In this document: piece by piece, positions 37,009 through 63,954 of the stretch | Numbering within the stretch: position 1 is the stretch's first letter | Layout: every line of letters begins with the position of its first letter | Assembly (NCBI RefSeq): GCF_032854445.1 | Contig: NC_088301.1 | Location: forward strand, 25,652,402 to 25,716,401 | Direction: 5' to 3' | DNA: 64,000 nt | Origin: Liolophura sinensis | Taxonomy: Eukaryota > Mollusca > Polyplacophora > Chitonida > Chitonidae | The notes under the pieces: generated by a model | What the model was told of the DNA's origin: nothing | What the model saw: the letters and a program-made list of their open reading frames with translations, nothing else | Databases searched by the model: none | Program-made: the position numbers and the translations under genes

Positions 37009-40000
37009 TCAGTACAAAATGAAGTTTTCACGTCCATCTAAATCAACTGAAGCACTTTTGTTCTTCATTTCCGCTTTGGCAGCTTCGAAATGTGCTTCCA
37101 CAATTTCTTTGGGAGTGCACCCGATTCTGAAGAAGGAGATCTCACCTGAAATGGAAAGAAAATATAGGTTTTAAACAAATCTTTTTAATTTTTTCCCACG
37201 CCTTGTAAACATAGTATCATTTGTATGATTTAGGCAATTTTGATCAACTTTTACCGTGTCTTTACCTGGCATTGTAGAAGAAGACTATTGCTATTCACTA
37301 TATGACCTTGACTAAGTTTTAAACTATATTAAACTATATTTTATGATCAATGGGCATTTTGTGCATTGCATAGCATTCTTATTTAATTGAAGTAGCCTAT
37401 TCCTTATGATTGGTGTTTTATGCCGTACTCAAGAACATTTCACTTATACGACGACGGCAAGCATTATGGTGGACAAAGCCCTGGGTATACCCACGACCCC
37501 ATCTGCAGGTTGCTGCGGACCCTCCCACGTACAACTGGAGAGCCCAATTCTTATGCACCATGCTCAAGAATATTTCACTTGTATAACGGCGTTATAACGG
37601 TGGAGGAAACCTAGAAGAGCCCTGGGGAAACCATTCCACCTCGCCACGTGGATCACAAACATCCTTACTAAAAGCCATAGTAAAACCACAGGTTTTCCCC
37701 CGGGCTCTGCCCGATGTCCTCCCACCATAATGCTGGCTGCCGTCGTATAAGTGAAATATTCGTGAGTACGGCGTAAAACACCAATGAAATAAAATAAATA
37801 AACTATTTAAAGGAAAAAAAAAACACTAAGGTGAAATATAAACTCGATGAAAGACCATTTAACACTGTCCATAAAACCAGACCGACTTCTATTTTATTAA
37901 TTTTTTTTTACCCTAATAAAATGTATTTGAAACTTTGGATCATATATGGTGGCCTTTTCCGTCCATACTGGGACCAATGACCTTTTTCCCACTTAACACA
38001 CACAGACGGCTAGATTTCACCATTTCAAAATGCCAAAATTTCAATACATGCCTTGAAACAAACTATATCCAGCTAACAACAGAGATAAGACGTCCCTCTT
38101 ACTACCCTCTGGGTCAATACAGACCACCGTAGAACCTGATGTTTTAAGACCATTTCACTCAATTGGAAAAATTTTAAAATAAAGAGTTTAATGATCTTTA
38201 ATGTTACATATTCCTCATTATAGTGCCTTTCTGAGGTCGTCTGGAAGAGTACCGATCAAGGACATTTGTTTTTTTTTTTTTTTTAACATTAGATACCCAC
38301 CTTGGTCTATCTTCATACAGTTTACCACAGTGGAGGCGACTAGCTCGTTCGATTCCCCATCACATAACATCCCGTCTATTTTATGACCTGTCAAAGGAAA
38401 AACACTTTCCATAAAGAAGCATAAAGACAGTTAACTAAGTTAGTGTTATCCCTATATTGTGTGTACAATGTCAGGCGAGACATACAAAAACGCGCGAGGT
38501 GTACAACAGCTACATACAATTCTACGGAACTGACATGTAGCCCTACCGATCTGGAGATCTAACATGTATGTTTCTGTAGAACTGACATGTAGCCCTACTG
38601 GTCTGGAGATCTAACAGGTATGTTTCTGCACAACTGAAATGTAGCCCCTACCGATCTGGAGATCTAACATGTATGTTTCTGTAGAACTGACATGTAGCCC
38701 TACTGGTCTGGAGATCTAACAGGTATGTTTCTGCAGAAATGACGTGCAGCCCTACTGGTCTGGAGATCTAACATGAATGTTTCTGCAGAACTGACATGTA
38801 GCCCTACTGGTCTGGGGATCTAACATGTATGTTTCTGCAGAACTGACATGTAGCCCTACTGGTCTGGAGATCTAACATGTATGTTTCTGCAGAAATGACG
38901 TGCAGCCCTACCGATCTGGAGATTTAACAGGTACGTTTCTGCAGAACAGGAATGCAGCCCTATCGATCTGGAGATCTAACATGTATGTTTCTGCAGAACT
39001 GAAATGTAGCCCTACCGATCTGGAGATCTAACAGGTATGTTTCTGCAGAACTGGAATGCAGCCCTATCGATCTGGAGATTTAACATGTATGTTTCTGCAG
39101 AACTGAAATGCAGCCCTACTGATCTGGAGATCTAACATGTATGTTTCTGCAGAACTGAAATGCAGCCCTATCGATCTGGAGATCTAACATGTATGTTTCT
39201 GCAGAACTGAAATGTAGCCCTACCGATCTGGAGATCTAACAGGTATGTTTCTGCAGAACTGAAATGCAGCCCTATCGATCTGGAGATCTAACATGTATGT
39301 TTCTGCAGAACTGAAATGTAGCCCTACCGATCTGGAGATCAACAGGTATGTTTCTGCAGAACTGACGTGCACCTTTTTTGGGGAAATATAATGTTTTAGA
39401 GAACTCAAAAATACACAGCTCTACAAAGAAATCTCACCCATAGAGAATAATACATTTTTCCCACAGCAACTTGTTTGCAATCTGACTGCAATCTGCCTGC
39501 AATCTGACTTTGTATTGCCAATCTGGCTTTGTACTGGCCATCTGGTTTTGTATTTGGCAACCTGGCTTTGTATTGGCAATCTGACTTTGTACTGGCAATC
39601 TGACTTTGTATTGGTAATCTGGCTTTGTATTGGCAATCTGGTTTTGTGTTTGGCAATCTGGCTGTGTATTGCCAATCTGGCTTTGTGTTTGCCAATCTGG
39701 CTTTGTGTTTGGCAATCTGACTTTGTCTTGACACTCTGGCTTTGTATTGGCAATCTCGCTTTGCATTGGCAATCCGGATTTGTGTTGGCAATCTGACTTT
39801 GTCTTGGCACTCTGGCTGTGTATTGGCAATCTCGCTTTGCATTGGCAATCCGGATTTGTGTTGGCAATCTGACTTTGTCTTGGCAATCTGGCTGTGTTTG
39901 GCAATCTGGCTTTGTCTTAAACAATCTGGATGTGTGTTGGCAATCTGGATTTGTGTAAGTAATCTGGCTTTGTGCTGGTAATTTCATTTGGCACAACCAA

Positions 40001-43000
40001 ACGGCAACACCACGAATTTCTACAGTTCAGCAAAGCCCAACAAGACAACACTAAAGCTTACCCAAAGATTCCAGCACCATATCATGGTGAGTGCTGTCCG
40101 CCCCACCGCTAGGGTTCGCCGACGTGATGGCCACAGGTCCAGTCATTCCCACCAAATGGGACAGAACCGTACTGTCTGGGACTCGTATACACACGCTCTC
40201 CTTGGTCCCAATGTACTCTACAGCGTCGTTCAGTCCCATGTTCCTAAGCCACTGGCCTTTGGGCACCACACAGCTGATTCCTCCTGGATAACACCGTCTC
40301 ATGAAGGCCCAGAGCAATGGACTGAAGTCAGGGTTTGCGTCGGCGAGCTGGTCCAGCTTGGATAGGCACACGCAGATGGGCTTCTCCGGAGGGCGCCCTT
40401 TGATGTTGTAGATGTTCCTGATGGAGGTTGGATGTTTGCAAGACGCGGCCAGAGCGTAGACTGTATCAGTGGGCACTCCACACACCCCACCGTTGTCCAG
40501 GATCTTAGCGATAGCCTTGAGACTGGTGGTACGCCGTGATGGGAACGCAGGACACACCGTCTTACCATTGTTCAGCTCTTCTAAATCCTTATCTCTCTCC
40601 TGAAAATCACAACAGAAACATACATGTTTTCAGAAATATTTGAACATTAAAGAAATTCTCAGAAAAAGATAAGGTGATGTCAATTTTAGTAAACATCAGG
40701 GCCAATCAGGGCCAAGTTCTTCGAAAGTGTATTAGTTAATACTGGCATTAAGTCATATTTTATATTAACAAATTTTGCCAAACTCAGCAGCCAATGCAGT
40801 TGTCCAGTGTCAAAGCATAACAGCAGCAGTTTTATAGTTCATGTTTAAAATACTGTGACGCAAATTTTTGCAGGCTAAGTACATAATTGAAGACTTGGCT
40901 TAAAACTTGGTATTAAGTTTGAACAACTGGGCCCAGCAAAATAGCCAGAGCAGGTCATGGCTCAGTAGCTTAGACGCGCATGTCTTACAATAGCTAGAAC
41001 ACAGTGTGGTGTTTAATCAACAGTCAAATAAAGAAATCAAATCAGCAAAATAGTAACGCGTGAAGCCTCACAGTTCTCTGTGGTGTGTCTGATCGTTGAT
41101 AATCCTTTTGTTTTTGTTTTGTTTTTTTTTTTGTTTTGTTTTTTTTTTCCATTTGAATGTACCTAAATGTCCTTTCATTTGAATGTAACTAAATGTCCTT
41201 TAATTTGAATGTACCTAAATATCCTTTCATTTTAATGTACCTGAATGAATGGCTCTCCCATTGGAATAATATGGCTTCCAAGCACCCCGTTCACCATGCC
41301 GGCGAAAACTCCGTAAAAACACACGAGACCTACAGAAGATAAATATTGACAGAAAACTGGTGAAAAGAATAGTCCTTTTGTTTAACTTGGGAAAATATGA
41401 TTGACTTGAAGATATATAATATTGCCATTGTTTTAACTCTAGATGATAACTATATACAACGTATCATACCTAGGAGCAGCATGGACACCAGCAACATGTA
41501 GCGTGGAAGAGCATCGAAACACTGAAGGACCAAACAAATGGCGTTCAGCTCAAACAGGATGGAGACCGGCAACCAGACCTTGTTCAGCACGAGGGTAACC
41601 AGCATGACGATCGTGTGGAGACTAAGGACTGCTACAGACCCCGCCCTTAGCGAAGCCGATAGGTTCTCTGAAAATACAATCTCATTGTCTTAAAATTGCT
41701 TAGTGGGTATTGTTATTCTATGATCATTTCTTTGAATTTAGACAATTGTATACCAGCCGTCACCAAAAATGGACGTTCCAGGTCAATAATCCCAGTACCG
41801 ATCCCACACTCCCCAGTATTACAATGGCAGTGACATACACTACGGTGTGGCCGCCTTACCAGTTTTTATTATAAGGGCACACATTCCCCTGTAGTACTTG
41901 ACAGTGACATAAGCTACGATGCGACCGCTTTACCATTGACGAGTATAACAGTCCACATTCCCCAGTAGGGCTTGACAGTGACATAAGCTACGATGCGACG
42001 GCTCTACCACTGACGGGTATAACAGTCCACATTCCCCAGTAGTGCTTGACAGTGAAATAAGGCAAGGTGTGATCACCCAGCCATTGATGAGTATAAGGGC
42101 CCACATTCCCCAGGAGTGCATGGAAGTAACAGGAGGGATCGCCTTACCATTGATGAGTATAAGGGCCCACATTCCCCAGGAGTGCATGGAAGTAACAGGC
42201 GGGATCGCCTTACCATTGATGAGTATAAGGGCCCACATTCCCCAGGAGTGCATGGAAGTAACAGGAGGGATCGCCTTACCATTGATGAGTATAAGGGCCC
42301 ACATTCCCCAGTAGGCCGCCAGCACCACCGTGACGTAGGTCTTCGCCAGGCTGCCCGAGGCGTACGCCAGTCTGCCAGCGTACAGCTGTATCAAAGCTCC
42401 TGCCACCAGCACCCACGGCAGGGCTTCGGTCCCGTTCGTCGCCTCGAACGTTGACATGCAAATGGCGGCCACCGTGTTGCCAAGGAACGAGATGGTATCC
42501 ACGATGTAGCTATCCATTTCCGGTCCTTCTTCGATCTCTTTGATTTCTGGAAACTTTTGACTCCTGCACAAAACAAAAAAAAATTATTTATTTTAGGAGA
42601 CTATGTGCGCTATCTTAAATTTGTGTCTTTAGTCTTTCATTCAATGCCTAAAATACGAAACTCTTACAAAGATTTTCCATTTTATTGGTAGAATGATGTG
42701 ATTTTTGCATATTGCGTGTAAAGCAATTGTCAAAACGGAATATGACGACATGTACTCCTAAAGGTTGGGGCATTATAATGTATGAAGTATATGTTTCCAA
42801 ATTCAGACGACATTCTACACATTTTCTGGGACCGATTCAACAAAGCCATTTCTGACTAAAGTCAAATTTTTAACCCTTATCACAGTGTTTAGTTGTTGGT
42901 AATAGACATCTAGTTTTTGGTAACATTTAACATAATTGATAACATTTATAAAGTGGTCAAAAGTTTTATTTCTATGGCCCAAAATTACTTTGATTTAAAT

Positions 43001-46000
43001 TTTGACTGAAGTCAGAAATGGCTTTGTGGGATCGTCCCCTGGCCTCCAGATCACGCCGCTGTCATAGTCAATCTTTGTCTTAACCTCAAAACAGTCTACA
43101 GCGCAAAAACTTCCCTTGGGAAGTTTTACTTAAATATTTAATCTTCATGCCTCAGGTTTTGATGTCCAAATGTATATCTTCAATATCATAAGTTAAAACT
43201 ACGTTTAACATAAGTCAAAGACGCCTTTATGATCCTGAGGCCTTGACATTATAAAAGTCTGAAGCATAAATACCTGCAACATGCCGTGAGCCTCTCAAAA
43301 TATGACCTCAAGCTGACCTGGGTCACGACCTCTGACCCCGTATACATGACTGCCTTCTCGGCTATGGAGTTGACCAAAGTGCCGAGAGCGATGTACAAGG
43401 ACACGATGGCGATAATGGCGCAGGGGATGCCGAATGTAAAGTTATAGACGTTAATAGGGATGTGTGCTACAGAGAGAAGAAGCATGACTAGGAAGAGGAG
43501 ATTGTATAGGAACACGACTTTCCCCTGGCACATAGACCCTACCAGGAGAGCGGAGTAGACCAGAAATAAACCCCACTGGCCATAGAAGTTAATCCGAGCT
43601 TCTATTATGCCGTGAAACTCCAAGGATATCAAGGTCTGGGTTATACCTTTAGACAGCCATAGCATTAGATAACAGATAAACTGGACGGAGTGGAAGAAAT
43701 CGTGGCGGAGGAAAGCGTAGAAACTGGCCAGCATGTGGCAGAGAAGGCTAAAAAGCAACATGGAGGCGGCAGGCCGGAAGTCGGTGAAGTAACCCAAATG
43801 ATGGAACGCGAGCACGGTGGCCGGCACGACGTTGCCAATGTAACCCAACGCCATCGGCTCAGCGTACTTCGTGTTTTTCTTTTTCTCTTTCTTTTTGTTG
43901 TCTTGGGCTTTGGCCCGGATCAACAGAACGTTGTACGGAGCATTTCCAAAGCCTGGTAAAACGTATCTCTGGCTGACGCCCTTAAGCGTCATCACCACGA
44001 CAGCGTATAACCCCGTTAAGACTATGAAAAGCTCGAAAGCCGCAGCCACCCGCTTACCCCAGAAATAAAACAGCCCCACCCCTTCAAAGACCAGAGTAAG
44101 GAACAGTGCTAACAGGACAGGGGGTAGAATATAATTAACAGTTAAGGCGCAGAGACAGAGAACGATGGCTATGGCGCAGAAAGCTATCATTCCCGGCAAG
44201 AGGCCCCTCTGCATCACCTCGGGCCCCAGGACAGGCTGTAAAAGGTGGCCTATCCCGTAGATGGACCAGATGGCCGAAAAGACGACGAAGGCGGTGGCCG
44301 TCAGGTGGTCATTTCGTCGGAACGACATGAAGGCGGCCATCACTTGGAGAATACCTCCAATGACGATCAGATGCACTCCTGGAATTAATAATAGAACACA
44401 TCAGTCATCAATGCAGTCATTTATTGATTTATTACTGATTGATTGATGTATCATGGGTCACAATCAAGAATATTCATATGTATATGACGACGTGAGGTTT
44501 ATGGGTGGAGAAAGGCGTCTCTTCGACAAGTGTTTGGCGAACCCCATACAAGACGTAAAGCCGCCGAGCGGATTTGAACTGGCAACCTCTTCGGTCAAGG
44601 GTTAGTACCCTGAAAATAGTCATGGAATAAATCTAACGATCTGATGCATACCATGGCTTTCAAGTCTTCCTAAAGGCTATACGATCCAACTTTATGCTAT
44701 ACCAGATTTAATAGCTAGTCATGTATATTTTCAAGATATTTGGACTTGCTAATCAATGCTAGTTTTTGGACTTTGTCAATGCCAGTACAGTAGATTTTTG
44801 GACTTTGTCAATGCTAGTATAGTAGATTTTTGGACTTTGTCAATGCCAGTACAGTAGATTTTTGGACTTTGTCAATGCCAGTACAGTAGATTTTTGGACT
44901 TTGTCAATGCTAATACAGTAGATTTTTGGACTTTGTCAATGCTTGTACAGTAGATTTTTGGACTTTGCCAATGCTTGTACAGAAGATTTTTGGACTTTGT
45001 CATTGCTAGTATAGTAGATTTTTGGACTTTGTCAATGCTAGTACAGTAGATTTTTGGACTTTGTCAATGCCAGTACAGTAGTTTTTTGGACTTTGTCAAT
45101 GCTAGTATAAGATGTTCTAAAACTGCATGCTTCATATATATGAATAAGTGGCCTCAATGTTACAATGAAATCTGACCAAGAGAAACCTGCGGCAATGGTT
45201 TCCAGTCAAGTCGGACTCACCAATCCGTTATCCTAAAGTTAAAAGACATTGTACTGTTAATTCCAGGGAAAGAATGAGCCATCATTATATTTATTAACAA
45301 AGCAAGTGTATTCAAAAAAAGCTTTTGTCAAATTTCAGCACGTTAATATTCATTATAATCTGCATAAATAACGGTATCGCAACAGATTAATAAAGCACCG
45401 TTTGACTGTAAAGAGGTTAACATCGCACGCATGCGGCGTATGTAGGCCTGTATGTATACCGGTACCGGTAATTCTGTAGGTAACAGGCTAGGCTTAACGA
45501 CATAGCCTAGTACACATCTGGAAAAAATGTTGACATTTAAAACGTATTCAGACAAAGAGCATGAATTACGATTGAAGTGTTTTTCTTTTTAATTATTGCA
45601 TCATTCACTGTTTTCTGACACAATCAAGAAGACGAGGAAGGACGGATTGCTGCTTTTCCGCCTCTTTTCCTCAATTCATGTCTTACCATATCGTAATATC
45701 TGTCATATGACGTCATTAAGTATCATCAGCAGTACGTCGAGCGCGCTGTACCGTTACACGTGTCTTTTATTTAATGCTTACACATAAACCGAAAACTCCA
45801 GTTTATCAAAGCAAAGCTTAAATATAATACCAACTCGTCAAAATACAAAAAAGTTTATGCAATGAACAGATTCCTGTATTACCCGACCACTTCTTCGTTA
45901 ATGTGTTAAGGCTGGTAAAACACTGCGAAGTGTCTGATCTAGGTATTGTTGACCAAAGCCGGACGAGATGGAGGCAATAAGATGGTGGGGGGGGGGGGGG

Positions 46001-49000
46001 GTATGGCCATCTAGACTTGGATCTGGTACCATACGGCGTTAGGTACGGTGGGCAGAGAGGGGAGGGGGGGAGGTGTACACGGGGGCTGACATGCCGCCAC
46101 AATCCCCCCATACACACATGAGTATATCAGGGGCACGTAGACTTAAGGATCTTACAACTACCGGACAATTACTCTCTGGCTTGTGTGAATTCTGTCAGAG
46201 CTTTTGTTTTATTATCTGATGCGCATAGTTTCCGTCTCCATGCTTGTTAATTCTGATCTGCAAATTAGACCGCTGTATTCTTCTGTGTATAGTGTATACA
46301 ATATACTCAGGCATGAAAAATCCTCTACACAAAATTCATTTGTTTTAAACTATTTAGCACCACATCTCGATTAACGCAACAGGATGTAAGATTTTAACCT
46401 CTCTGATAGTGAAAGTGAACGAGATAAAACCGATGACGTATTAAAGTGGTCGAATAAAGGATGGGGAAAACCTGCAAATGTGTCCGAACTTTGTAAGAGT
46501 TCAAATTTCCATTATTTATTTTTTGAAAAAAGGACAAAATCATGCAAAATTTCTGCATCTGCTATACTCTGTTTTAACATGAATTGTCCTTCTTTGGTAA
46601 AGTGGTTAACTTCATCCACCATATATTTTTACTCTGTGAATGTATTACTGCTATATGATCAAAATAGGTGTAATTTTCTGTGCGTGCAACATGGCTTTTC
46701 CAATGTGTAATGTAATCTTGACACATTTCTGCTTATGCAACGCAGCAGTTGTATATGTAACGTAATCCTGCAATATTTCTGTGTATATAAACGTTGGTTT
46801 GTCTGTACGTATCACTGCATAATAATATTATATGTCTGTGTATGTAGCGCTTCTTTCTCAGTATGTGAATGTAATCCTGTCATATTTTTCATTTATTTAT
46901 TTATTTTATTGGTGTTTTACGCCGTACTCAAGAATGCCATATTTTTGAAACTGTTCTATCAATGCCTGTGTGTACAGGCGTATAAATGTGTCAGTCCCCC
47001 TATCCTGTGTCTATTATTGTATCTTCACTCTATTAGTTTTTAGTTCATTAATATCCAGAATGTCATCATCCCATTTGTCTGTAAGTGTATCATCCAGCTC
47101 ATGCTGGCTTCCTCTCCGGTCGTACGTGAGAAGGTCTGCCAGCAACCTGCGGATGGTCGTGGGTTTCCCACCGGGCTCTGCCCGGTTTCCACCCACTATA
47201 ATGCTGGCCGCCGCCGTATAAGTGAAATATTCTTGAGTACAGCGTAAAACACCAATCAAAAAAAAAAAAAAAAAAAAAAAAATGTAAGTGTATCATCACC
47301 ATTTTTCAGTAAGTGTATCATCCCCCCATTTGTCTGTAAATGTATTATTACCCCATTTGTCTGTAAGTGTATCTTCACTCCATTTGTCAGTAAGTGTATC
47401 ATCACTTCATTTGTCTGTAAATGTATCATTACCCTATTTGTTTGTAAGTGTAGCATATATGCCTGCAGATACATCAGTGCGAGAATCCATTGAGCTGACG
47501 TTGCCTTTGCAGAGTATCTAAGCAAACCGCTGTATAGGTATGAAGTGTCATTGAACATTTATTCAAAGTGACCTTACGACTTGTACGCATTGCCTTGAAT
47601 ATCCAGGTTAAACCCTATACCTGAGCGGGTTACAATTTCTGTGCATTCGCTTTGCAGGGGTATACACCACTGCCGGAAGAAGCACTTTAATAATGACCCT
47701 CAAAATGGTAGGAAGACAGTGTGATTAGTATGAACTTCCAGGAGTTTGTGACATGAACTAGCTCTGCTACCGCTGTGGCTATGGTACTTGGCTGTGTGTA
47801 TCTGTGCTTTCATTATGTACACAGGTCACCGACACTGATAATATCTACCGCATTTGTACTACTTATTAAAGTAGCTTAAACAGACCCCTGATTGCTTCGC
47901 ACATTGAGATATAGTTTTTTAATGATACTAATTTCACCACAAATTCTAATTCAGACACCCTATAGCAGCAGTCTTTGTGCTAAGAGACACGTTCTATTCA
48001 CTTAATATAATGACGTCAGGCAACATTTCCTCTTTTTGAAGTGGATGTTTTTCATTAATATCAGCCCTGTGTCTTTGTTCTCGTCAAAAAAAAAACACTG
48101 AGACAGTTTATTTCATCCCAAAATACTGTACATTCAATGGATAACGAACGTATGTATTTTAAATATACGACGTTTCTGCGTAGATACAAGCGTTATTACT
48201 CGACGTTTCGGTGTACATACAAGCGTAAATACTATTGACAACGGATTCATGTCTACAACGACACGTCGCTCGTTTGTACAGGCCAAATGAAGTTGTTATC
48301 CATACAATTTACAATTGTTCATTGTGTTCTTCCACTCAGTTTCCAATTGCTATTCGAACAAGCAAATTTATGTTAGTTGTCAAACACCTGCGCTCAAAAT
48401 TAAACCATATCTACGCCTGCGCTTATAAGTTCTCGTTCGTAGTATTTTACTTCGCGCAGCAAATCACACTATTTATACAAGTCTATTTAAATATATGGGT
48501 GTCAACGAACTAATTATGTATTTACATACTAAAAACAATACGGTATATTGTCCAAGGCGACTTTTCGCCACAATTGAATTAATCAAGCCTTCACAACCGG
48601 GACGTGATGGGGAGAAAACTTTTCTGGTCTTCGGACTATACAGACCAATAGCCATGGTACGCCCAACAACGTAGTCCAGAGCAATTATCTAAGGGGTGGT
48701 TCGCACTATGGTTAGAAGTGTTCTTTGTTACTCCCCCAGCATTGTCTGGGGACAGGTATATTACTGCTCGACCTGGTGCAATTTTTCACCTAACTGTCCG
48801 ACCGTGTGCCGGAAACAAAACGTGTTCCCCAAGCTGACATGGAGAACAACGTGGAAATATGCTTTTGATAACATGTTCAGTCGTGAGGTCTCTGTGTGAC
48901 TGACACAATTGGAATAAAGGAACTGGTTAAATAAATCGCTTTAGCTGCATTTATACCCCCACAAACTGACATAAAAAATAAACATGTAAGACATGGGAGA

Positions 49001-50546: not shown

Positions 50547-50597
<51 letters not shown>

Positions 50598-50598
50598 G

Positions 50599-50630
<32 letters not shown>

Positions 50631-53600: not shown

Positions 53601-56335
53601 TTCTTGTGGGCACATCCTTACAATTTGTGTTCAGCGGTAAAAACCATGTCAAAGGAAACAGCACTATAGATCACCAACTGATAGAGAACAGCAAAGACAA
53701 TGAAAAGCCTCTTTACAAAGGCATTGTGGGATTTAAATGATGTTTTATACGGATTAATTATCACAGTATTGTTACTGACCTGATGTTGGTCCTATTCAAA
53801 ATATATCATATGCAGACAAGAGTTTAAGTTGTTTTATTATTATGTGTTATTAACCGCGCACTCACCAAACTATGCTTTTGCTTTTAAGGTCCAGAATGTC
53901 ATTTTAGTGCGGTTACCAGTAATCACGCCTAATGTGGAGTAGACATTATCAGCATTCACGGCAAATATGTATGCCATAGACACTGAAAGTATAATCAGAC
54001 ACAGTCATTGTGGCATAGACATTGTCTGTACCGTCGTCAGTGTGGCGTAAACATTGTCTGTACCGTCGTCCATCTAGTGTGGGCATCGTGTGTACTGTCG
54101 TCAATTTGGTGTAGGCATTGTCTGTAATTATACGGTCAATGTGGCATACACGTTATGTATAACTAATGTGGCACAAACATTGCCAGTAATCATGGTCAGA
54201 ATTGTTTCGTGTAACTACGATCAATGTGATTTATGCATTGCCTGTAGTCAAGGTCAATGTGGCACGGACGCTGTGTATAACTAATGTGGCACAAACATTG
54301 CCAGTAATCACGGTCAGAATTGTTTTGTATAATTACGGCCGTGAGTTCAAGTCCAACTCTCTGGCTTCCTCTCCGGCCGTACGTGGGAAGGTCTGACAGC
54401 AACCTGCGGATGGTCGTGGGTTTCCCCCCGGGCTCTGCCCGGTTTCCTCCCACCATAATGCTGGCCGCCGTCGTATAAGTGAAATATTCTTGAGTACGGC
54501 GTAAAACACCAATCAAATAAATAAATAAATAAATATAACTACGATCAAAGTGGCTTATGCATTGTCAGTAGTCATGGTCAATGTGGCACAGACGCTGTGT
54601 GTAACTAATGTGGCACAAACATTGCAAGTAATCACGATCAGTAGGGCTGCGTTCACAGAACCCATGTTCCGCCACTCCTTCACATGATTATATTGCCACG
54701 CATTTCACTTTCGATTAAAGCTGTTCTTACCTCATGCGGTCTAAGAAATACTAAACAAGCTTAGTTACTGCATGCGGCATCCGGGTTCATTTATTGGTAA
54801 CATTAAATTGTTTGGTTGGTCACACGACTGTTTGTGAATGACAGGCCGAAAAGGTCAATAGCTGTATGAACATGATGCCTAGCACAGATTTAGCCTGAAG
54901 ATCAGTCCTTTTATTTTCAGTCTTCAAAACTTACGTTGAAGCAACGGACAAGAAACGAAACCACAAGCATTCAATTATCCTTTAAAGGCAAGCACCTTAA
55001 CCACTTGGTCAAGATCCGTACCAATTTGTTGTACTGTTTCACGTGCACGTGATGGTGTAGTTACGTGTGTTGTTAAATTAGGCCCTACTGACCGTGTATA
55101 TAAAATAGGGAACTATCACTATGATACGTTATATCGTACAAGTGGAAAACCCCATTAAAAAGATCATCGACAGCCAATGCCTCTGTCATAACGTTTCATA
55201 TCCCATGAAAACCTTGACAAACACTTGTGTATGACAATAAAATATGTGTCAAAAATTGTATGTGTATATGGAGGCCGGTTAAGGCCATCATCGTGCCATC
55301 GCCTCGCATCATCGTGCTATCGCTTCGTGCCATCCCTTCGCATCATCGTGTCAAGGCATGATGGCCTCTCGTTTCGATATGATGTTCTTACCCGGCTTCC
55401 TAAATAGCACGATATATGTTTATCAGTTTCAAAATGTATATTTTTCGAGAATTTGTCCACGTGGTGGCGACTAATGCCTCTTTCAGTAATCGACTCCTAC
55501 TTATCTTTACTGAACGGTTAGTTCACAGTCGACTGCGCCATACTACGTAAAATGTGGGGGGAAAAGTTTGGCATTTTTGAAGATACATTTCCAGTCAAAC
55601 CATTGCATAAGTTTGTTGGGCGCCCGTCGATGTCGTGTGCAAGATCTAATCAAGAGGGTCAAAGTGTCGAATCCATGAGAGGTATCCACTTTTATATTTT
55701 TCCCCACAAGAATCAATGTCTTCTCTCTTTCAATACAGGTTCTTCATTCTAACATTACTACAACCATACAAAATCTTTAAAAAAAAATAACGTTCAAAAT
55801 AATTTTTCAGTGTTATCCCCATGCCAGAGGGTGTATAAATTGCTACTATTTAGGCATTTACATGAATAAAACTCTGAATGAGGTGAACTGACAAGAAGTC
55901 GTATCTCACGGGTTACGTGCGACCATTTGCCAGCTATCACACTGACGACACTGGTCTGGTTTTACTCTCTATGTTGTACGTCTTTAATTATATTGTAAGA
56001 GGTATACATCAGTACGAAATTCATGTATCACCAGAACGGAACAGTTCTCTGTCCCTATTTCTGGAAGAGCACAAACGGACTTCTCTGGTGACAAAAATAC
56101 TTGTTCCGCAAGAATGGAACAGGTTTGAGCCCCTTTTCCCACAAGTCAGAAGATAAAGTCAAGTTAACTTACCTGCCAGCGAAAGTGCCACAGTTGTCGG
56201 GGCCCCAGTCAGCATATTCTCTATCGCCACAACCAGAGCTGACATGATATTGGCGATCACCCCGAGGGCCCCGGGCTCGGCATACAGTATCGCCGCGAAA
56301 GAGTCCCCTCTCCCATTCTCTTTGCTTGCCCCCAT
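37009..56335 (-). CDS. SatP-like multi-pass membrane protein fused to a YrdC domain (8 exons, complete)
   Basis: Minus-strand exons: 56173-56335, 43274-44378, 42280-42563, 41470-41667, 41241-41329, 40062-40599, 38301-38387, 37009-37145. All are GT-AG, phases agree throughout, total 866 residues. The start MGASKENGRG is the first ATG in frame. Residues 1 to about 610 are hydrophobic, with repeats of the form AEPxALG...GGILQVMAAFMSFRR...TATAFVVFSAIW, like the NPAPLG...GG.AQ..AG..E...GNTFG.TAF...FW pattern of the SatP/GPR1/FUN34/YaaH acetate-transporter family. Repeat starts lie near residues 18, 235 and 440. Residues about 635-850 form a YrdC/Sua5 domain with PTDTVY, KGRPPEKP, YPGGIS, IRVPD and TSANPSG. 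In known enzymes that domain makes threonylcarbamoyl-AMP from threonine, bicarbonate and ATP for tRNA t6A. Transport substrate and enzyme activity here are inference. A divergent paralog lies upstream. Confidence 0.88.
37395..37625 (-). mobile_element. Two abutting RUDI-like SINE fragments, reverse
   Basis: The first copy reads TGATTGGTGTTTTATGCCGT, ACTCAAGAACATTTCACTTA, CATCTGCAGGTTGCTGCGG. It is followed at about 37555 by a second start of the same block (CATGCTCAAGAATATTTCAC) and GGAGGAAACCTAGAAGAGCC. This looks like one SINE inserted beside or into another. The pair lies 3 kb before the YrdC exon 40062-40599, inside the last intron (37146-38300). Confidence 0.75.
37680..37805 (+). mobile_element. 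RUDI-like SINE 3' half
   Basis: Forward copy: TTTTCCCCCGGGCTCTGCCC, CACCATAATGCTGGCTGCCG, TCGTATAAGTGAAATATTCG and GTAAAACACCAATGAAATAA. It is inverted relative to the copies at 37395-37625, making a loose inverted pair within the same intron. Confidence 0.85.
38519..39368. repeat. 52-bp minisatellite in a YrdC-domain intron, about 16 copies
   Basis: Unit of 52 bases around TTTCTGCAGAACTGACATGT, AGCCCTACCGATCTGGAGAT, CTAACATGTATG. I count about 16 copies with few substitutions (CCGAT or CTGGT before CTGGAGATCT; AACATG or AACAGG). It starts 130 bases from exon 38301-38387 on the intron side and nearly reaches the 19-bp array. Confidence 0.95.
39468..39985. repeat. 19-20 bp minisatellite next to the 52-bp array
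   Basis: About 26 copies of a unit like TTGGCAATCTGGCTTTGTA, with A or G, GTATT or GTGTTT variants that shift length between 19 and 20 bases. Because the unit has no stops in several frames, it produces long overlapping open frames on both strands (for example 39421-39996 minus). These are repeat translations and not genes. It ends about 75 bases from the YrdC exon at 40062. Confidence 0.95.
40062..40599 (-). CDS. Main YrdC-domain exon of the complete fusion gene
   Basis: One exon encodes residues 614-792. Motifs by residue: GGVCGVPTDTVYALAASC (651-667), YNIKGRPPEKPICVCL (677-692), FMRRCYPGGISCVVPKG (712-728), VCIRVPD (749-755), GPVAITSANPSGG (767-779) and STHHDM (782-787). The Lys/Arg pair of KGRP and the Ser of TSANPSG correspond to nucleotide- and substrate-binding residues of YrdC/Sua5. 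The following exons 38301-38387 and 37009-37145 give LCDGESNELVASTVVNC and ISFFRIGCTPKEIVEAHFE, matching the family's C-terminal IASTVVD...ILR.G pattern. Confidence 0.9.
40940..41045 (+). mobile_element. SINE remnant (head joined to tail)
   Basis: CATGGCTCAGTAGCTTAGAC, GCGCATGTCTTACAATAGC resembles a tRNA A-box head. It is followed at once by GTGTTTAATCAACAGTCAAA and TAAAGAAATCAAAT, like a SINE tail. The body is deleted. Weak support. Confidence 0.35.
41859..42312 (-). repeat. Tandem copies of an exon end plus its 5' splice site (7 copies)
   Basis: On the minus strand the last 30 or so bases of exon 3 (GGAATGTGGGCCCTTATACT, CATCAATG) with donor GTAAGG and the first intron bases are repeated in tandem. 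Unit starts on the plus strand are 41859, 41933, 42007 and 42081 (74-base steps), then 42147, 42213 and 42279 (66-base steps). The three right-hand copies are nearly identical and keep GTAAGG. The left-hand copies are diverged but keep a GT at the same place in three of four (41859, 41933 and 42007; the copy at 42081 has GC). Reading on from exon 3, the frame stays open through three units, each adding 22 residues. Confidence 0.93.
43274..44378 (-). CDS. Large membrane-module exon of the complete fusion gene
   Basis: This 1105-base exon encodes residues 56-422, about ten hydrophobic segments. It finishes the first SatP-like unit (HLIVIGGILQVMAAFMSFRR, LTATAFVVFSAIWSIYGIGH), has a Lys-rich cytosolic-looking linker (AKAQDNKKKEKKKNTKYAEP) and holds the second unit starting AEPMALGYIGN. 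The linker lies between two hydrophobic blocks, consistent with a tandem two- or three-unit transporter-like fold. I cannot tell from sequence whether a transport pore is formed. Confidence 0.88.
44420..44605 (-). mobile_element. Diverged tRNA-headed SINE
   Basis: Reverse copy. (ATTG/ATTT)-rich end, GTCACAATCAAGAATATTCA, ATGACGACGTGAGGTTTATG, and near 44600 a B-box-like GTTCAAATCCGCTCGGCGG on the minus strand. The tail region resembles the RUDI-like family; the body is different. Confidence 0.55.
44763..45112. repeat. 32-bp minisatellite, about 11 copies
   Basis: Unit of 32 bases: TTTTTGGACTTTGTCAATGC then TAGTACAGTAGA, with C/T and A/C variants. Copies are almost identical, so the array is young or homogenised. 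It lies about 400 bases into the large first intron of the minus-strand fusion gene. Confidence 0.93.
46886..46940 (-). mobile_element. RUDI-like SINE tail fragment
   Basis: (ATTT)n then ATTGGTGTTTTACGCCGTAC and TCAAGAATGCC. Only the 3' end is present. Confidence 0.75.
47065..47475. repeat. 27-bp minisatellite interrupted by a SINE
   Basis: Unit of 27 bases, GTAAGTGTATCATCACCCCA then TTTGTCT. About seven copies lie at 47282-47460 and one or two more at 47060-47091, to the left of the inserted SINE. As 27 is a multiple of three, open frames run through it without being genes. Confidence 0.9.
47092..47281 (+). mobile_element. RUDI-like SINE inserted into the 27-bp array
   Basis: Forward, 5' truncated: CAGCTCATGCTGGCTTCCTC, CTGCCAGCAACCTGCGGATG, CCCACTATAATGCTGGCCGC, GTAAAACACCAATC, then a long A run in place of the usual (AATA)n tail. 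TGTAAGTGTATCATC stands on both sides; this is either the target duplication or simply two array units. Little diverged from the family pattern. Confidence 0.9.
50544..50632. repeat. (GATT)n microsatellite
   Basis: About 22 tetranucleotide repeats TTGATTGATTGATTGA with two GGTT variants in the middle. Confidence 0.97.
53990..54660. repeat. Diverged compound array interrupted by a SINE
   Basis: Left part: copies of ACATTGTCTGTACCGTCGTC with variable spacers. Right part: longer units with TAATGTGGCACAAACATTGC, CAGTAATCACGGTCAGAATT and ACGATCAATGTGGCTTATGC blocks. The right-hand units continue beyond the SINE at 54333-54535 (AAAGTGGCTTATGCATTGTC, AATGTGGCACAAACATTGCA). Confidence 0.8.
54333..54535 (+). 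mobile_element. RUDI-like SINE inserted into the compound array
   Basis: Forward copy with part of the head (GCCGTGAGTTCAAGTCCAAC), CTCTCCGGCCGTACGTGGGA, GGGTTTCCCCCCGGGCTCTG, GTAAAACACCAATCAAATAA and an (AATA)n tail. TATAATTAC on the left and TATAACTAC on the right look like a nine-base target duplication with one later change. It is close to the family consensus. Confidence 0.9.
55269..55406. mobile_element. Possible short inverted-repeat element (MITE-like)
   Basis: GGAGGCCGGTTAAGGCCATC opens the stretch. Its right end, read on the opposite strand, begins GGAAGCCGGGTAAGAACATC and also contains GAGAGGCCATCATGCC. Between them are near-repeats of CATCGTGCCATCGCCTCG. The imperfect terminal inversion suggests a small non-autonomous DNA element. 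No transposase, and no clear target duplication. Confidence 0.4.
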
Positions 56336-56507
56336 GGTCGTCCCTCAAAAGGGAAACGTCTTTTTGGACAGCAATGATAGTGGCGTTGATCTTGGCCAAC
56401 CACCAGTGAAACCTCTGTTTTAGATGGATGGGCAACAAGTGTTCACGCTATGGTCGTTAGCTGGTGGATGGTATCTATACCGATTGCCTTTGATAAGTCA
56501 GTTTTGC

Positions 56508-56515
56508 TTTTTATA
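56508..56515 (-). promoter_or_regulatory. Candidate TATA box, minus-strand gene
   Basis: On the minus strand the sequence reads CTTATAAAAAGC, a good TATA-box match, about 175 bases upstream of the start codon. It would place transcription start near 56480 and give a 5' UTR of about 145 bases. Confidence 0.4.
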
Positions 56516-57356
56516 AGTAGCAATTTATCGTCATGGGAAAAGATAAAAAACGACATCGCGTCAGCATTCTCTTGAAGTCACGACTCTGATGTGAGTCAAA
56601 GGTACTAACAGCCAATCAAATCGTTCGGTTCCGACACCAACGCATGACTCGATCCTCCCTCGATGGCTTCATAGAAATTAAATTATCACAAGGACACTTC
56701 CGCAATCGTTTGACGTATATCCAGATCAGTTTTGATTGTCATTATTTGCATCTTAGTCTTACTAAAAAAAAAGCATAACAACAAAATTTCAATACATATT
56801 TACGGCTATTCTTGTCCGACCGCAAATCCTATCTAGAGTCGGTTTGATTCGTTTCAAACTCAGCGGGGGGTAAAAATGCTCAGCAGCAGGAAATTTCAGA
56901 ATCCTGGTGATCCGCAGCGAGAGAGTCAGTAAGTCCGGGTTTGGACCCCCTCCGGCGACAATGTCACCAGTTGTGACTGAACAGGAATTCCCGCGCACGT
57001 GACGGTAAAGGCTGACTGGACTCACCCTCGAGGGCGGGATATCACGTGCCAATCAGCCTCCTAACGGCAGGGGCCCGGCGCTCCACAGACGGGACACTTT
57101 TTTTTAGCTGGCCACACCGTGAAAAAGCAAATCACAAAAGAAGCATGTGCGTGTTGAAGAAACTCAACGTGTCTCTATTCACACGGACAAGGAAACTGGA
57201 TTATTACAGGTAACAAACGTCATGCTCGGAGGAAAACTCTCATCGCAGGTTTTCGTCATCCTCCAACATATCTGACCAAATAAGAACTAGGTTAGCCCAT
57301 GATGAAACTGATTTTTGTGAACCTCCGCTCACTTCCTTGTTTGGGGGGAGACCGGC

Positions 57357-57362
57357 TATAAG
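57357..57362 (+). promoter_or_regulatory. Candidate TATA-like box, plus-strand gene
   Basis: CGGCTATAAGCTCC, a moderate match, about 630 bases before the ATG at 57993. It implies a long 5' UTR. The match alone is weak evidence. Confidence 0.3.
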
Positions 57363-57992
57363 CTCCGCCTTTTTACTTATACTCGAATGATAGCTCTGCC
57401 CACAGCCAGTTCGTTGAGAAATGTATGCAGCGTAGTTCGAGTGAGCTGTACGGCCATTCGGTGCAACCTTATTGTGTTCGGAAAATGACCATCGTGATTA
57501 TAATAACCTACATGCGGTATTGACAGGCTAGCGGCGAGTTCACGCGAGATCCGAGAGACTTTTAGAGATAATAAGCTGGTTAAGGCCTTCCTCTTGGACA
57601 GTGGGTACGTACTGGTGTCACACCAGCCTCCCTAAGCATTGTCACACTCGGCCGGCGGAGAGATTAGGGTTTTGATCAGATTAGCGTGCTCTTCGCCAGT
57701 TCACGGCGATCAGTGGAACTCAAGCCCACGAGAGACTTGCTTTCTCCAGGCCAAGTTATAGGCTTCTGCCTGCCCTCATCCGTTCAGCCAGCTAGCGGCC
57801 GCGGTAACATTTTACAGTTGTTACAGTTTTACAAACTATTGGAACGCAGACTTTTGCATTTAGCACTTTCCACACAGCAGAGAACGAAACCGAAACTAAC
57901 AAGAGTCCAGGTTTGATGTTACAAAACTGACAAGAGTTTTCTCCCGTTACTTTCCGATCTCACGCGTGTAAGCCTTGGACATCGGCGACAAC

Positions 57993-59572
57993 ATGGGCGA
58001 AATCCATAGGTTATCGGCAACCATTGCCACGATTTACACGAATTTCTGGGCGTTTGTTGTGATGAGCGTCTACACGTTCTCCGAGGGATGGAGAAGCTCC
58101 TGGGAGAAACCTGATCGCCCCAAAGACAGCCTGAACTACGGCGTGGCTCTTCTTACCTTATCCCTGGCATCCTTAGTCACAGGTATGATCAATTTCTTTC
58201 CCCGCTGTCCTCAGATGTTTTGAGTTACAGGTGAGAAAAATTTACCGTTATGTACCGGTATCTTGAGATCTGACCGAAACATCTTCATAAAGCACCTGTA
58301 TCTGCTATATATACTCATCTGTACTATAGTATGAAATACCGGATAAACAATTCCTCGGCAGTTGATGTATATACAACAAATTCTAATCGTGTAAAATAAA
58401 CATCCTCCAACCACTTAATCCCATTGTACGCATATATCCTGGGATTAGTTATAAAAATTTTCAAAATAATCCTATCACATTCATTTAAATAACTTCAGTC
58501 GAATGTATCATTTTTATTGCTCACTCAGTAATAGTAACAGATCAGTTTATTCACTTCTATAGTATATATTCAGTCACAGGTTATTTTCCTGGTGGTTACA
58601 TTTCAACATGTTATTCACTGTTATAGTATTTATTCAGTCACAATTTAGTTTTCTTTTTGTTACACTTCACCATGTTATTCACTGTTATAGTATTTATTCA
58701 GTCACAGGCTAGTTTTCTTTTTGTTACACTTCACCATGTTATTCATTGGTATAGTATTTATTCAGTCACAGGTTAGTTTTCTGTTGGTTACACTTCACCA
58801 TTCATTGTTACAGTATTTATTCAGTCAGAGGTTAGGTTTCCGTTGATTACACTTCACATTCTTATTCAAATTTGTGGTATTTATTCAAATTTGCTTAACA
58901 AGCTCCATCCATAAAGTTAGCTGACGTGGTAGAAGTGACACCAGTCAGATAAATAAATAAATAAGATCACCTTTAACATTCCTGCTTTGGCTCGAATCCA
59001 GCTCATCGGTTCGAATCCAGCTCTGGCTTTTTCGTCTGCAGCTTTAAATCAGGGTTTTTTTCACAAACCTGGCGACGACTGGTAGTCTGCAGTAGTTTTC
59101 TCTCCTGCACTCCGGTTTCCAACATACCCATAAACCTGAACACTATCATTTGGCCAAGTGTACACTCGGGAAATATCCTTGAGTACAGCGCTAAACACCA
59201 ATCATATAAATAAATAAATAAATAAATAAATAACCATTACTGATTTTGAGACTTAAAGATTAACAAGACACAACTCCAGATTAATTAATTTCATAGTGCA
59301 ACCTTTGATACATGGCTAAGCATTATGCAATTGTTCATACTCCAAGGGCAATTCTGCACGGTGCAGGGCTCCAATGTTGCCTTGCAGAGCGCACTTTTCC
59401 GGCTAAGCTTTACATCTAAGTTCATGTACAGTAATCGACAGTGTATAGCACAGCCTTTACCCCAGCAAGATTTCAGCTCAGGGCAGTACGCTATGGGGCA
59501 TTCAGCGTTGTAGGCTTGCACAGCATACATTGTTGTACCCTGAATAGTTATGTAAAGGAGTTGTGTAATATG

Positions 59573-59603
<31 letters not shown>

Positions 59604-62600
59604 GAGGCGGTGGAGGGGTTGCAATATGATTGTTTGTTTATGGTGTTTGAGTGATGGGTAAAAGATTTTAAGAATCACACTGACTGCGGTCAACACCCAC
59701 GATAATCCGGATAATCCACCTTAATCTCATTAACCCAGTCCTCCAGACACTCGAGTGAAATTAAGATAGGCACGAGCCGTTATTTCAAAAGCAGCTAGGC
59801 GAAATTAGAATGTCAGAGAAATGAAGTCAATTATGACAGTCATTTGTGTGTCGGCTTCCCGCGGACACGGGCTGCGTTTGTTAACATTCCGTCCTCTGTC
59901 GCCCCTGTCCATGAATGTCACCCCAAACTCTGACATTATGTTTATCTGTCTCAGCTCCACTCCCTCAAGTGTAGAATCATGTGAAACACACAGGCCTTCA
60001 GCTTTGACACCGCCATGTTGCCAGACCCCATCATAAAGGCACCATTCATCATTCGACCTCTTCACCCACCTTTACAACATAGAGCAATGAATTTGTCTGT
60101 ATTCATTTATTCTCTCGTGCAACTGGTATATGCTTTTAATTTCGAAGTCATTTTCGTAAGCGGTAGGTCCTGGGTTCAAACCCGAGCCTTGTTAACATTT
60201 TAAAACTGGCAATTATGATACAAATGTCGTTCTTAACATTTAGCGCTGTAAATTGGTGAGTTTTATTTTTATCATTTTTATTCATTCAATTCAGATTTAA
60301 TATGGTGATGGGAACAGCGTCTCTTTAAAGTTCAAACCATTAACACCTTGTACAAAGTGGTAAACGTCCAAGTATTCCTGTATTTATTTGTTTTAAACAT
60401 AACCGTAGATTTTATACATTTTAAAGCAATGATGATGTATGTAGTCACACAATTCAAAAAGTAATATAACAGTCAGTAATGTATTAACAGGCACTGAATT
60501 CGATCTCTCAACATCTCTTTTCTTAACCTTCCTCGATACAACCCTTCATGGCAAACTCTATCAAATGAACTCCGACAAATAAAACATTTCTGCCACAATA
60601 AGTGTTGAGAGTTATCATAATGGCTGACAGCTGTTTGCATTGTCTGGATATGGTGGGCGGACATTTGTTCCACATATTTTATTGGTTAGTGAGTTTGTGG
60701 AAGCAAGAGCAAGGAGTTTCAGCTATTTACACTTACACTGACAGCGTAGCTTTTTATAGCGTAGAAATAGAGGGCAGACCACACCATATTTTAAAAAACT
60801 TAACAACTGTACATCACAAAACTGTGAGTGATCTTTGTCTTTTTAGGTCTGACATCCGGGGATGCTGACGAGCCTTTGTTTCGAGCCGTTTTTCTCTGCC
60901 TCACCGCTGTGTGGGCATCACGTGGCCTGTACCACGTGGTCGACGCTAACTCCACTGTTCCTGTTGTGACAACGAGCGAGGGCTTGTTTCCAGGTTACGG
61001 CGCGTTTCTTTGCATTTTTGTGGTTTTCACTGGTCTTGCTTTAGTTCAGCGTTCTAAACACATAGCTATCTTGTCCTTCTGTTTGGCCTTAGCCTGCCTT
61101 TTTGAGATCGTTTCCTTTTGGCGACCCTTATCCAACGCCACCGGCGCTTATTACGTTCTGCTGGGCGCCATTTTGATCCAGAGCTTGTTTCGTTACATGA
61201 TCAAGCGCCGATCGGCATCTGACTCCGAAATTCCAGAGAGACTCCGCGACAATCAGGCGCTGTCCATAGACTACGTTGTTGTTGGTAATGCGATGAACGT
61301 CGTCTGTTCGGCGGTCTTTGCCAGTCATGTGACAGGCATCACTTCGTTTCCTAGTGACAGTTTCGCTTGGGTGTTGGTGCCGGGTCTCCTACAAACCATC
61401 TGTGGGGTCGTGTCTGTCAGACGTTCCGATGTCTATCACGGGTGTCACTTTTGTCTATATGGGGTCTTCTGGGCCGGCGTAGGGGTCACTTTGGCCATGG
61501 AGTTTTTCCGCGACACACGGACATCACCACTCATTGCCGTCTATATTTTCTTCATTGTCGTCTACCTTTGTGCTGGAATATTCTCAGCTACTAAAGAGCT
61601 GTTTGTTTCTTTCCAAAACATAGTGTTTTGTTTATTTTGCTTGGCTCTCTGTACTGATGGTTTATCTGGAAGGTTTCTTGGCGCGATGGGTTGGATCAAC
61701 TTCTTGTTGTCTCTGTACGGCTTAGCCGCTCAATTAACAAGGGTACTGAAATGTTCGGTCAAACTGCCTCTCGGCAGGCATTTATTCGAATCCAACAGAA
61801 TTCAACAAAACATGGTCGACAAAGTGAGGTGCTGCGCTTCTTGCATCTATGGAAAGTTGCAGGATCAATCCAAGCAGCCCGCGAACAAGATGTCGGGAGA
61901 CGTTATGTTAGGTTATTCAAAGTACGCTGATTTGGACATGATCGGTTTTTTCTGCAATGCGGTGGCAGGTTTAGCCATTCTCTGGCCGCCATCAGGAGGT
62001 AGTATATTTATTCTCCCCTGGGTTTTTGGTATTGGCGGATTTCTTCAACTCCTCGTCGGCTGCGTGTCATTCTCGCGGGGAAAAACTTTCGAAAGTTGCG
62101 CCTTCATTGTATTCAGTTGTCTTTGGTTAATCTGGGGGACAGCCAGGGGATTAGATTTCTACGAAGGAGAACAGTGTGTAGCTGTGTCAGTTGGGTGTAT
62201 CACCTTCCTTGTAGTCGGCATTTTACTTCTCTTGCTCTCAGCGGTTGTCAGTAAGGCCTGGTTCGTCACGACTCTCCTCTTTAACATGGTCTGTATCGCT
62301 TTCCTCGTGGACAGCCTTCAGGTGGAAGCCACCCACTCTTATGAAGTGGTTGTCATGATCATGTTTGCTGTGGTTTCGTTCTACTGTTTCACGGCATGCG
62401 CACTGAGATCTGTTACTGGTCGGCCATTACTTCCGCTGGGCTCACCAATCATCAACGTGAGCTATCTCCACGCTCATGGTGGCACCGCAATCTGGGCGAA
62501 CGCCAAGAGGGACACGGGCGTATCAAAAATTGCAGGTAAGCTGTTAGAGACAAAAAATGCTTTGTCTAGAGAAAGCAAAAATAGTTTAATAACATACTGA

Positions 62601-63954
62601 ATTGTGTGTTAATGAGAATGAGAATCTCTGACACTCAGATTGAATGCGAACTGGCAGTCTAGATCCAGTTGTACGAATGTCCTGCTTCGACGTCAGGGTT
62701 AAGGGAAAGTGATCAGTTCATCGCCAATTTGTAAATTCAAATATAACAGCAAACTGAAGTGCAAACATCTTTATTTTCAAGTGTCACCTAGTCGTCTAGA
62801 ACCACATACATGCTGTCATATAAATAAAACTAGAAAAGCAATGTCATCAAGTTATAAATCTTATTTATTTATTTATTTGATTGGTGTTTTACGCCATACT
62901 CAAGAATATTTCACTTATACGACGACGGCCAGCATTATGGTGGGTGGAAACCGGGCACAGCCCTGATGAAACCCAAGACCATCCGCAGGTTGCCGGAAAA
63001 CCTACCCAGATACGGTCGGAGAGACTAAATCTTAGATTGGCATATAATAGAAAAATGGCTGTGGGCTAGTCGTCTATAAAACAACTGAAGAGAAATAAAC
63101 GTAGAGCTGAAATGATGGACTTAACCACTTCGCGGCAGATTCTTATCCATCTTTCAATATCCTATCAATTTAATCTTCAATATAGCATTATCAAATGTTT
63201 CAAATGTGGGACTGCGGGGTACCTTGTTAACAGTGCTCTTCCTTGTTTCGTACAGACATCCTAAACCGCGGAGGGATATGTGGGATACCCTCAGACGTTG
63301 TCTACATCCTCGTGGCTGCCTGTAAACACCCAGAGGCTGTTGAGGTAAAACCAGACTTTAAAATTTAGGTTGGGTGGGGTTAGCCCTTGTATGTTTTCGG
63401 TTACCACAAACTGTCTGCGGTTCATGTCCAGACTTGTTTGGGGAAATCCATGTTAATTTGGAGTTTTAGACAAAGGTGTAAAAACACCATTAACTTGGTT
63501 GATTTTGTGGCATAATCTCAAAAGCACTCCAGATGACATACCTCTCAAAATGAGAAATAAACCCTAGTATCCAGTGATGTTTCCAGAGGAGAATCACTGA
63601 AAAGTAAACAGGAAAGATGTATTTTTCTTTGAAATTTTACAATCAGAATTGGTTCAGTGACGATATGTAATTACTCAGAATTTTGACTTTAAATACACTT
63701 GGCCAGAATGCCCTCTAAAAATGAAAACGGATACGACACTATAATTCCACCGAACGTTTCAAACATCCTATCAGTGTGCACTGTTTCTTTACAGAGAGCG
63801 TATAACACAAAGAAACAAGCGGAAGAGCGTCCTATGTCCATGTGGATCTCGAACCTGAAACAGATTGAGGCTGGTAGGGAGTTGTTCGGAGAGCTGACCT
63901 GGGCATTCATGAAGGAGGTCTGGCCATCCACCATTAGTCTGGTCGTCAACAAAG
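57993..63954 (+). CDS. Paralogous SatP-like protein with degraded YrdC domain (3' end beyond window)
   Basis: Exons: 57993-58182, 60847-62535, 63256-63344, 63795-63954, all GT-AG with matching phases; at least 710 residues, continuing past the window. The start MGEIHRLSA has a good context (ACAACATGG). The 1689-base exon encodes most of the membrane part with no intron, unlike the minus-strand paralog. The third unit, KYADLDMIGFFCNAVAG...GGFLQLLVGCVSFSRGKTFE...CAFIVFSCLWLIWG, is the clearest SatP-like repeat of the window (compare GGIAQIFAGLLEYKKGNTFG of SatP). First intron position and phase match the paralog. The YrdC part reads GGICGIPSDVVYILVAACKH, then NTKKQAEERPM and WPSTISLVV, so PTDTVY, KGRP and PGGIS are all altered. 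It is probably not an active threonylcarbamoyl-AMP synthase; this is inference. The last donor is at 63955. Confidence 0.85.
58540..58895. repeat. About 63-bp tandem repeat in first intron of the plus-strand gene
   Basis: Five to six copies of a unit around GTTATTCACTGTTATAGTAT, TTATTCAGTCACAGGTTAGT, TTTCTTTTTGTTACACTTCA. Outer copies are more diverged than the inner ones. Confidence 0.88.
58960..59232 (+). mobile_element. Diverged RUDI-like SINE
   Basis: Forward copy: two adjacent B-box-like pieces (GCTCGAATCCAGCTC and GGTTCGAATCCAGCTC), an altered core (CTCCGGTTTCCAACATACCC), then GGGAAATATCCTTGAGTACA, GCGCTAAACACCAATCATAT and an (AATA)n tail. The core differs from other copies, so it may be a subfamily. 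Confidence 0.65.
62858..63030 (-). mobile_element. RUDI-like SINE in intron of the plus-strand gene
   Basis: Reverse copy: (ATTT)n, TTGATTGGTGTTTTACGCCA, TACTCAAGAATATTTCACTT, GGCCAGCATTATGGTGGGTG, CCATCCGCAGGTTGCCGG, TACGGTCGGAGAGAC. Head missing. It lies in the intron before the exon at 63256. Confidence 0.88.

Follow-up and report, generated by a model that had tools for sequence, protein, structure and literature searches.

A 64,000-nucleotide stretch of the Liolophura sinensis genome (RefSeq assembly GCF_032854445.1, contig NC_088301.1, positions 25,652,402 to 25,716,401; hereafter the window, whose own numbering is used throughout) carries two divergent molluscan genes that belong with the ATO-YrdC fusions of metazoans. 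As read from their predicted exons, each codes for a protein of 18 helices, arranged as three six-helix units related to the SatP/AceTr family and followed by a C-terminal YrdC domain, and the fusion of membrane part to YrdC is confirmed in both gene models. The genes lie head to head, with starts ~1.7 kb apart. Gene 1 occupies the minus strand, with eight coding exons from 56335 down to 37009 and a product of 866 residues; gene 2 occupies the plus strand, with four coding exons inside the window (57993 to 63954). A BLASTP alignment of the two products (159 bits, E 1e-44, 24% identity over 682 columns) spans the fusion junction. An earlier note on this DNA had proposed two such divergent paralogs, and its 866-residue model of gene 1 is reproduced exactly at the coordinates it gave (37009, 41241-41329 and 40062-40599), as is 63954 for the end of the last exon of gene 2 in the window.

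The fusion architecture itself is already published. The accessible part of Ghasemi et al. (iScience, June 2026, PMC13316224) describes vertebrate ATOs of about 900 residues in which three Gpr1/Fun34/YaaH units are followed by a Sua5/YrdC domain at the C-terminus, and this overtakes any view of the fusion as previously unknown. The present analysis adds its occurrence in a protostome, a split in the YrdC catalytic motif, and a uniform change of a gate residue.

Gene models and the fusion junction

The coding exons of gene 1 are as follows.

56173..56335, minus strand: exon 1; start methionine and first helix of membrane unit 1 (open reading frame with GT donor)
43274..44378, minus strand: exon 2; remainder of unit 1 and whole of unit 2 (AG/GT borders, phase 1)
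42280..42563, minus strand: exon 3; opening half of unit 3, with its donor inside a 66-bp tandem repeat
41470..41667, minus strand: exon 4; continues unit 3
41241..41329, minus strand: exon 5; end of unit 3, with HIIPMGEP (compare TVLPIGES in SatP)
40062..40599, minus strand: exon 6; linker plus the larger part of YrdC, with PTDT, KGRP and SANPSG
38301..38387, minus strand: exon 7; YrdC continuation (STVV), matching ASTVVDC.KIE.G in gene 2
37009..37145, minus strand: exon 8; last part of YrdC (FFRIG), then the stop
38106..38135, minus strand: candidate 30-nt microexon in an intron; repeats GSTVV, AG/GT borders, phase-neutral, outside the 866-residue model

All seven introns of gene 1 are bounded by GT and AG and the exon phases are consistent, in agreement with the earlier claim that the fusion is encoded in frame. 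An AATAAA begins ~60 bases downstream of the stop. The 30-nt segment is possibly an optional microexon; it was tried in the main model and dropped, and the 866-residue form without it is preferred because gene 2 has the STVV segment only once, in the same frame. The 66-bp repeat (42081-42311, 3.5 copies, 98% matches) holds the 3' end of exon 3, and the GT donor of that exon is present three times within it. Each step of the repeat equals 22 codons and keeps the frame, so the length of the gene 1 protein may vary. The intron between exons 6 and 7 contains two further tandem arrays, one of 52 bp x16 (38520-39365) and one of 19 bp x25 (39499-39973).

The exons of gene 2 comprise four in the window and two past its end.

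57993..58182, plus strand: exon 1; start methionine and beginning of unit 1
60847..62535, plus strand: exon 2; a single open exon with the remainder of unit 1, the two later units and the linker as far as the YrdC border
63256..63344, plus strand: exon 3; YrdC start (PSDVVY)
63795..63954, plus strand: exon 4; YrdC continuation (KKQAEERP)
64501-64706 and 65067-65756 (window numbering continued), plus strand: exons 5 and 6

The window itself holds only the first half of the YrdC domain of gene 2 (PF01300, 43 bits). Its remaining part lies 0.5-1.8 kb past the window end in the same genome, giving a completed protein of 1007 residues. Its C-terminal tail of 167 residues (L087, about 1653-2153) is Ser-rich, charged, absent from gene 1 and probably disordered.

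Evidence that the junction is encoded comes from both genes. First, the single open exon of gene 2 at 60847-62535 spans two membrane units and continues to the YrdC border, and thus the fusion does not depend on joins made by eye alone; the last residues of this exon align where the TIGR00057 match starts in gene 1, and the PF01300 match begins one or two residues later. Second, gene 1 is free of methionine from residue 607, at the end of unit 3, to residue 713, beyond PTDT (656) and KGR (680), which leaves no start for a stand-alone YrdC in this interval. Third, the domain order is identical in both paralogs and in the vertebrate proteins described in PMC13316224. A pair of independent genes that the model alone has united, through readthrough or mis-joined exons, would be compatible with gene models known from genomic DNA alone and with the several short exons and repeat-rich donor of gene 1; given the reach of the gene 2 exon and the lack of a free methionine in gene 1, mis-joining was rejected as very improbable.

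Differences between the paralogs are most frequent at third codon positions in both parts of the proteins, with 42, 34 and 65 differences at the three positions among 94 aligned YrdC codons and 331, 232 and 368 among 520 membrane codons. Coding GC is 0.52 in gene 1 and 0.50 in gene 2, against 0.41 for the region.

Membrane units and their relation to SatP

Each gene contains three tandem SatP-like six-helix units, aligned in both genes with a likeness above chance; unit 1 of gene 2 is weak alone. The six-helix fold of SatP is borne out by a structural model made of one unit, and gene 1 exon 2 matches SatP among Protein Data Bank (PDB) entries (5zug, 6.4e-05). A profile of 80 fetched enteric SatPs reported four of the six units: unit 2 of gene 1 and unit 3 of gene 2 outscored all 500 of their shuffled versions, and unit 1 of gene 1 and unit 2 of gene 2 were each reached by one shuffle in 500. 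Unit 3 of gene 1 and unit 1 of gene 2 were not reported by this profile. Matches to PF01184 lie below its curated cut-off of 25 bits, the best reaching 18.1 bits and the whole proteins 11.4 (gene 1) and 10.1 (gene 2), and the long exon of gene 2 (60847-62535) yields matches, also below cut-off, to NCBIfam acetate uptake transporter models. With the same exon as query, a PDB search returned no match up to E 10; its AlphaFold2 model, made from that exon alone, has a predicted local distance difference test score of 44.8. A tblastn search of phages with the gene 1 membrane exon gave no match, and scans of viral contigs returned 13 pattern stretches for the membrane exon and 26 for the YrdC exon, none of them a relative.

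The earlier note had read the membrane part as that of an acetate/succinate transporter. The kinship of the units stands, but the substrate does not follow from it. The pattern GG.LQ...GC.SF.RGKTFE on which the reading was based is literal in unit 3 of gene 2 and degenerate in the other units. The NPAPLGL signature is intact in none of the six units; at most three of the seven positions survive, in the first two units of gene 1. The column of SatP Phe17 holds Asn in all six units, a change seen again in a second alignment for the three units that it covers. This residue, together with Leu131 and Tyr72, forms the FLY constriction of SatP. The Tyr72 column holds Tyr, Phe and Leu in two units each, and the Leu131 column, which falls where the alignment is poor, shows L, L, V, K, Q and a gap; the FLY constriction is thus not kept across the six units. 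Both the NPAPLGL and the Phe17 positions are invariant in the 80 fetched SatPs, all of which are close to the E. coli protein (identity of at least 81%). In yeast Ato1, mutations of NPAPLGL and FLY residues impair or alter activity and specificity, according to the accessible text of PMC13316224. Given these mutant effects and the altered signature and Phe17, acetate transport should not be assumed for either protein.

Compared with known systems, the units share the six-helix fold and, with varying completeness, the GG..Q..G, W and LP.G landmarks with SatP of E. coli and Citrobacter koseri and with fungal Ato1/Ady2; they differ from these in the broken signature, the Phe17 replacement, the presence of three units per chain and the fused YrdC. 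Likeness to the urea channel UreI of Helicobacter pylori is weaker than to SatP (12-13% identity), and UreI was not among the matches listed in the sequence searches.

YrdC domains and the ordinary YRDC gene

The YrdC assignment of the earlier note holds for both genes: PF01300 matches gene 1 at 114.7 bits (4.4e-33) and complete gene 2 at 92.9 bits, above 25 bits and above its curated cut-off, and the open reading frame around gene 1 exon 6 (40051-40629) matches at 8.7e-28. A profile search of the 866-residue protein thus finds its YrdC part securely and its membrane part only under the PF01184 cut-off. TIGR00057, scored on the main YrdC exon of gene 1 only, reaches 91.6 bits (3.6e-26; equivalog cut-off 123.2 bits). 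Among solved structures, threonylcarbamoyl-AMP synthases and MTH1692 come closest. The YrdC of gene 1 retains the PTDT, K-x-R (as K-G-R), SAN, STVV and FR motifs, whereas that of gene 2 retains SAN, STVV and FR but has PSDV for PTDT and K-K-Q for K-x-R, and thus lacks the Arg that E. coli has at position 52. We take the Lys and Arg of K-x-R to be catalytic residues. Relative to the YRDC/Sua5/TsaC synthases, the domains therefore belong to the same family by PF01300, with active-site motifs retained in gene 1, and differ in being fused to a membrane part and, in gene 2, in lacking the K-x-R Arg.

The genome searched comprises 609 Mb, and match counts from it are lower bounds. PF01300 has at least four matches: one is gene 1, another is the remainder of gene 2, and the other two are exons of a single further gene on contig C1 that reads like an ordinary YRDC carrying K-R-R. 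Among the matches listed, a search of the whole genome with the membrane exon of gene 1 returns only that exon and gene 2 (E 0.011). Identity to the genome's own YRDC is 23% for gene 1 and 21% for gene 2. A recent origin of the fused domain by copying of the host YRDC was rejected, as it scores 35.1 bits to that protein and 65.3 to archaeal MTH1692. The best match of the host YRDC is likewise MTH1692 (84 bits), and for this reason horizontal transfer is not claimed.

These observations bear on two functions for the fused enzyme. In the first, gene 1 would supply threonylcarbamoyl-AMP near the membrane for N6-threonylcarbamoyladenosine (t6A) in tRNA, with the membrane part as an anchor or non-conducting scaffold. 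Its intact YrdC motifs and TIGR00057 match would suit such a second synthase, but an ordinary YRDC gene is present, 18 helices far exceed the needs of an anchor, and gene 2 would be enzymatically inactive; we regard this role as improbable. In the second, the membrane part would import a small carboxylate or bicarbonate that the YrdC adenylates or uses at once. The motifs retained by gene 1 and the persistence of both parts in a single chain in two diverged paralogs speak for such coupled uptake, which the authors of PMC13316224 also raise when discussing their results. The fusion is nevertheless kept in gene 2 despite PSDV and the missing Arg, and no unit of either protein has the intact NPAPLGL or the Phe17 of SatP, so that coupled uptake appears rather unlikely, though a stronger candidate than a second synthase.

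Several features apart from the fusion genes were observed. Exons of an AAA ATPase lie at 16512-21092 on the plus strand (PF00004, 1.2e-10; PF17862, 2.5e-10), presumably of an ATAD2-like gene. A dispersed SINE-like (short interspersed nuclear element) repeat contains ATATTTCACTTATACGACGGC, for example near 47100-47260 and 62880-62970; the window has eight copies of this sequence at up to two mismatches, three and five on the two strands. Elsewhere in the genome, contig C8 carries eight tandem matches to the haemocyanin beta-sandwich domain (PF14830) within about 11.4 kb; eight units in one gene are typical of classic molluscan haemocyanin, which agrees with a mollusc, and hence a lophotrochozoan, as the source.

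Possible functions and place in the ATO-YrdC family

At roughly even confidence, we favour a channel-like protein with a cytosolic YrdC that is ligand-responsive or enzymatically coupled, rather than a simple acetate carrier or the principal tRNA-modifying enzyme; of the alternatives, substrate-coupled uptake and a second synthase bound to the membrane come nearest to it. Both protein ends would be cytosolic, with YrdC as the regulatory or coupled part on that side. The changed signature and gate residues suggest that the units conduct a small solute other than acetate, or that some are structural only. The YrdC of gene 1 has probably kept the ability to bind ATP together with a substrate that resembles threonine or a carboxylate, and it may form an acyl-adenylate; that of gene 2 probably lacks normal catalysis but binds a ligand. 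Because this genome has an ordinary YRDC gene, the fused protein is probably not its main t6A enzyme. The earlier note had guessed at acyl-adenylate coupling or a ligand-sensor role for YrdC; both are possible, and loss of the K-x-R Arg leans toward the sensor for gene 2. Human YRDC, also named IRIP, is mentioned second-hand as a regulator of transporter activity. SatP forms hexamers, as stated in the accessible part of PMC8471396, and PMC13316224 proposes that two vertebrate ATO chains form a similar six-unit ring; two chains of the present proteins probably pair in the same way.

The molluscan proteins agree with the published description of the vertebrate ATO-YrdC proteins in their three units, C-terminal Sua5/YrdC and approximate length (866 and 1007 against about 900 residues), and differ in host and in the 167-residue tail of gene 2. 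The accessible text of PMC13316224 reports YrdC as absent from the protostome clade and places a few protostome sequences inside the vertebrate clade, with no statement there on their YrdC; proteins like those of gene 1 and gene 2 may be among them. That study collected sequences by PF01184 annotation and, in the text available, marked domains by a relaxed rule (PF01184 above 0 bits, PF01300 above 25 bits). Both genes would pass the marking rule, but with PF01184 at 10-18 bits where reported, below cut-off, collection by annotation would probably miss them. A literature search for a YrdC-transporter fusion in oyster found nothing, and titles and abstract openings on threonylcarbamoyl-AMP synthase with a transmembrane part included no paper on such a fusion.

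The presence of two diverged copies in a mollusc would be explained no less well by an old bilaterian family than by transfer. More speculatively, ATO-YrdC may be a channel family of ancient bilaterian origin rather than an invention of vertebrates, with YrdC turned into a cytosolic sensor for ATP/amino acid or for bicarbonate and gating a polar six-unit ring lined by Asn. Gene 2 would then code for a sensor subunit without catalysis that may combine with the gene 1 protein in a mixed ring, and PF01184 surveys would have missed protostome members below cut-off. This wider proposal is doubtful as it stands, but if true, no horizontal transfer would be needed for the protostome sequences inside the vertebrate clade.

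The locus shows a transporter-enzyme fusion to be present in a protostome; the one paper found to describe this fusion (PMC13316224, in its accessible part) reports YrdC as absent from the protostome clade. The locus also indicates that the PF01184 cut-off can conceal animal members of the family. Neighboring paralogs with and without the YrdC catalytic motif, together with an ordinary YRDC gene, form a natural comparison, so that adenylate-making and ligand-sensing roles of the fused YrdC are directly testable.
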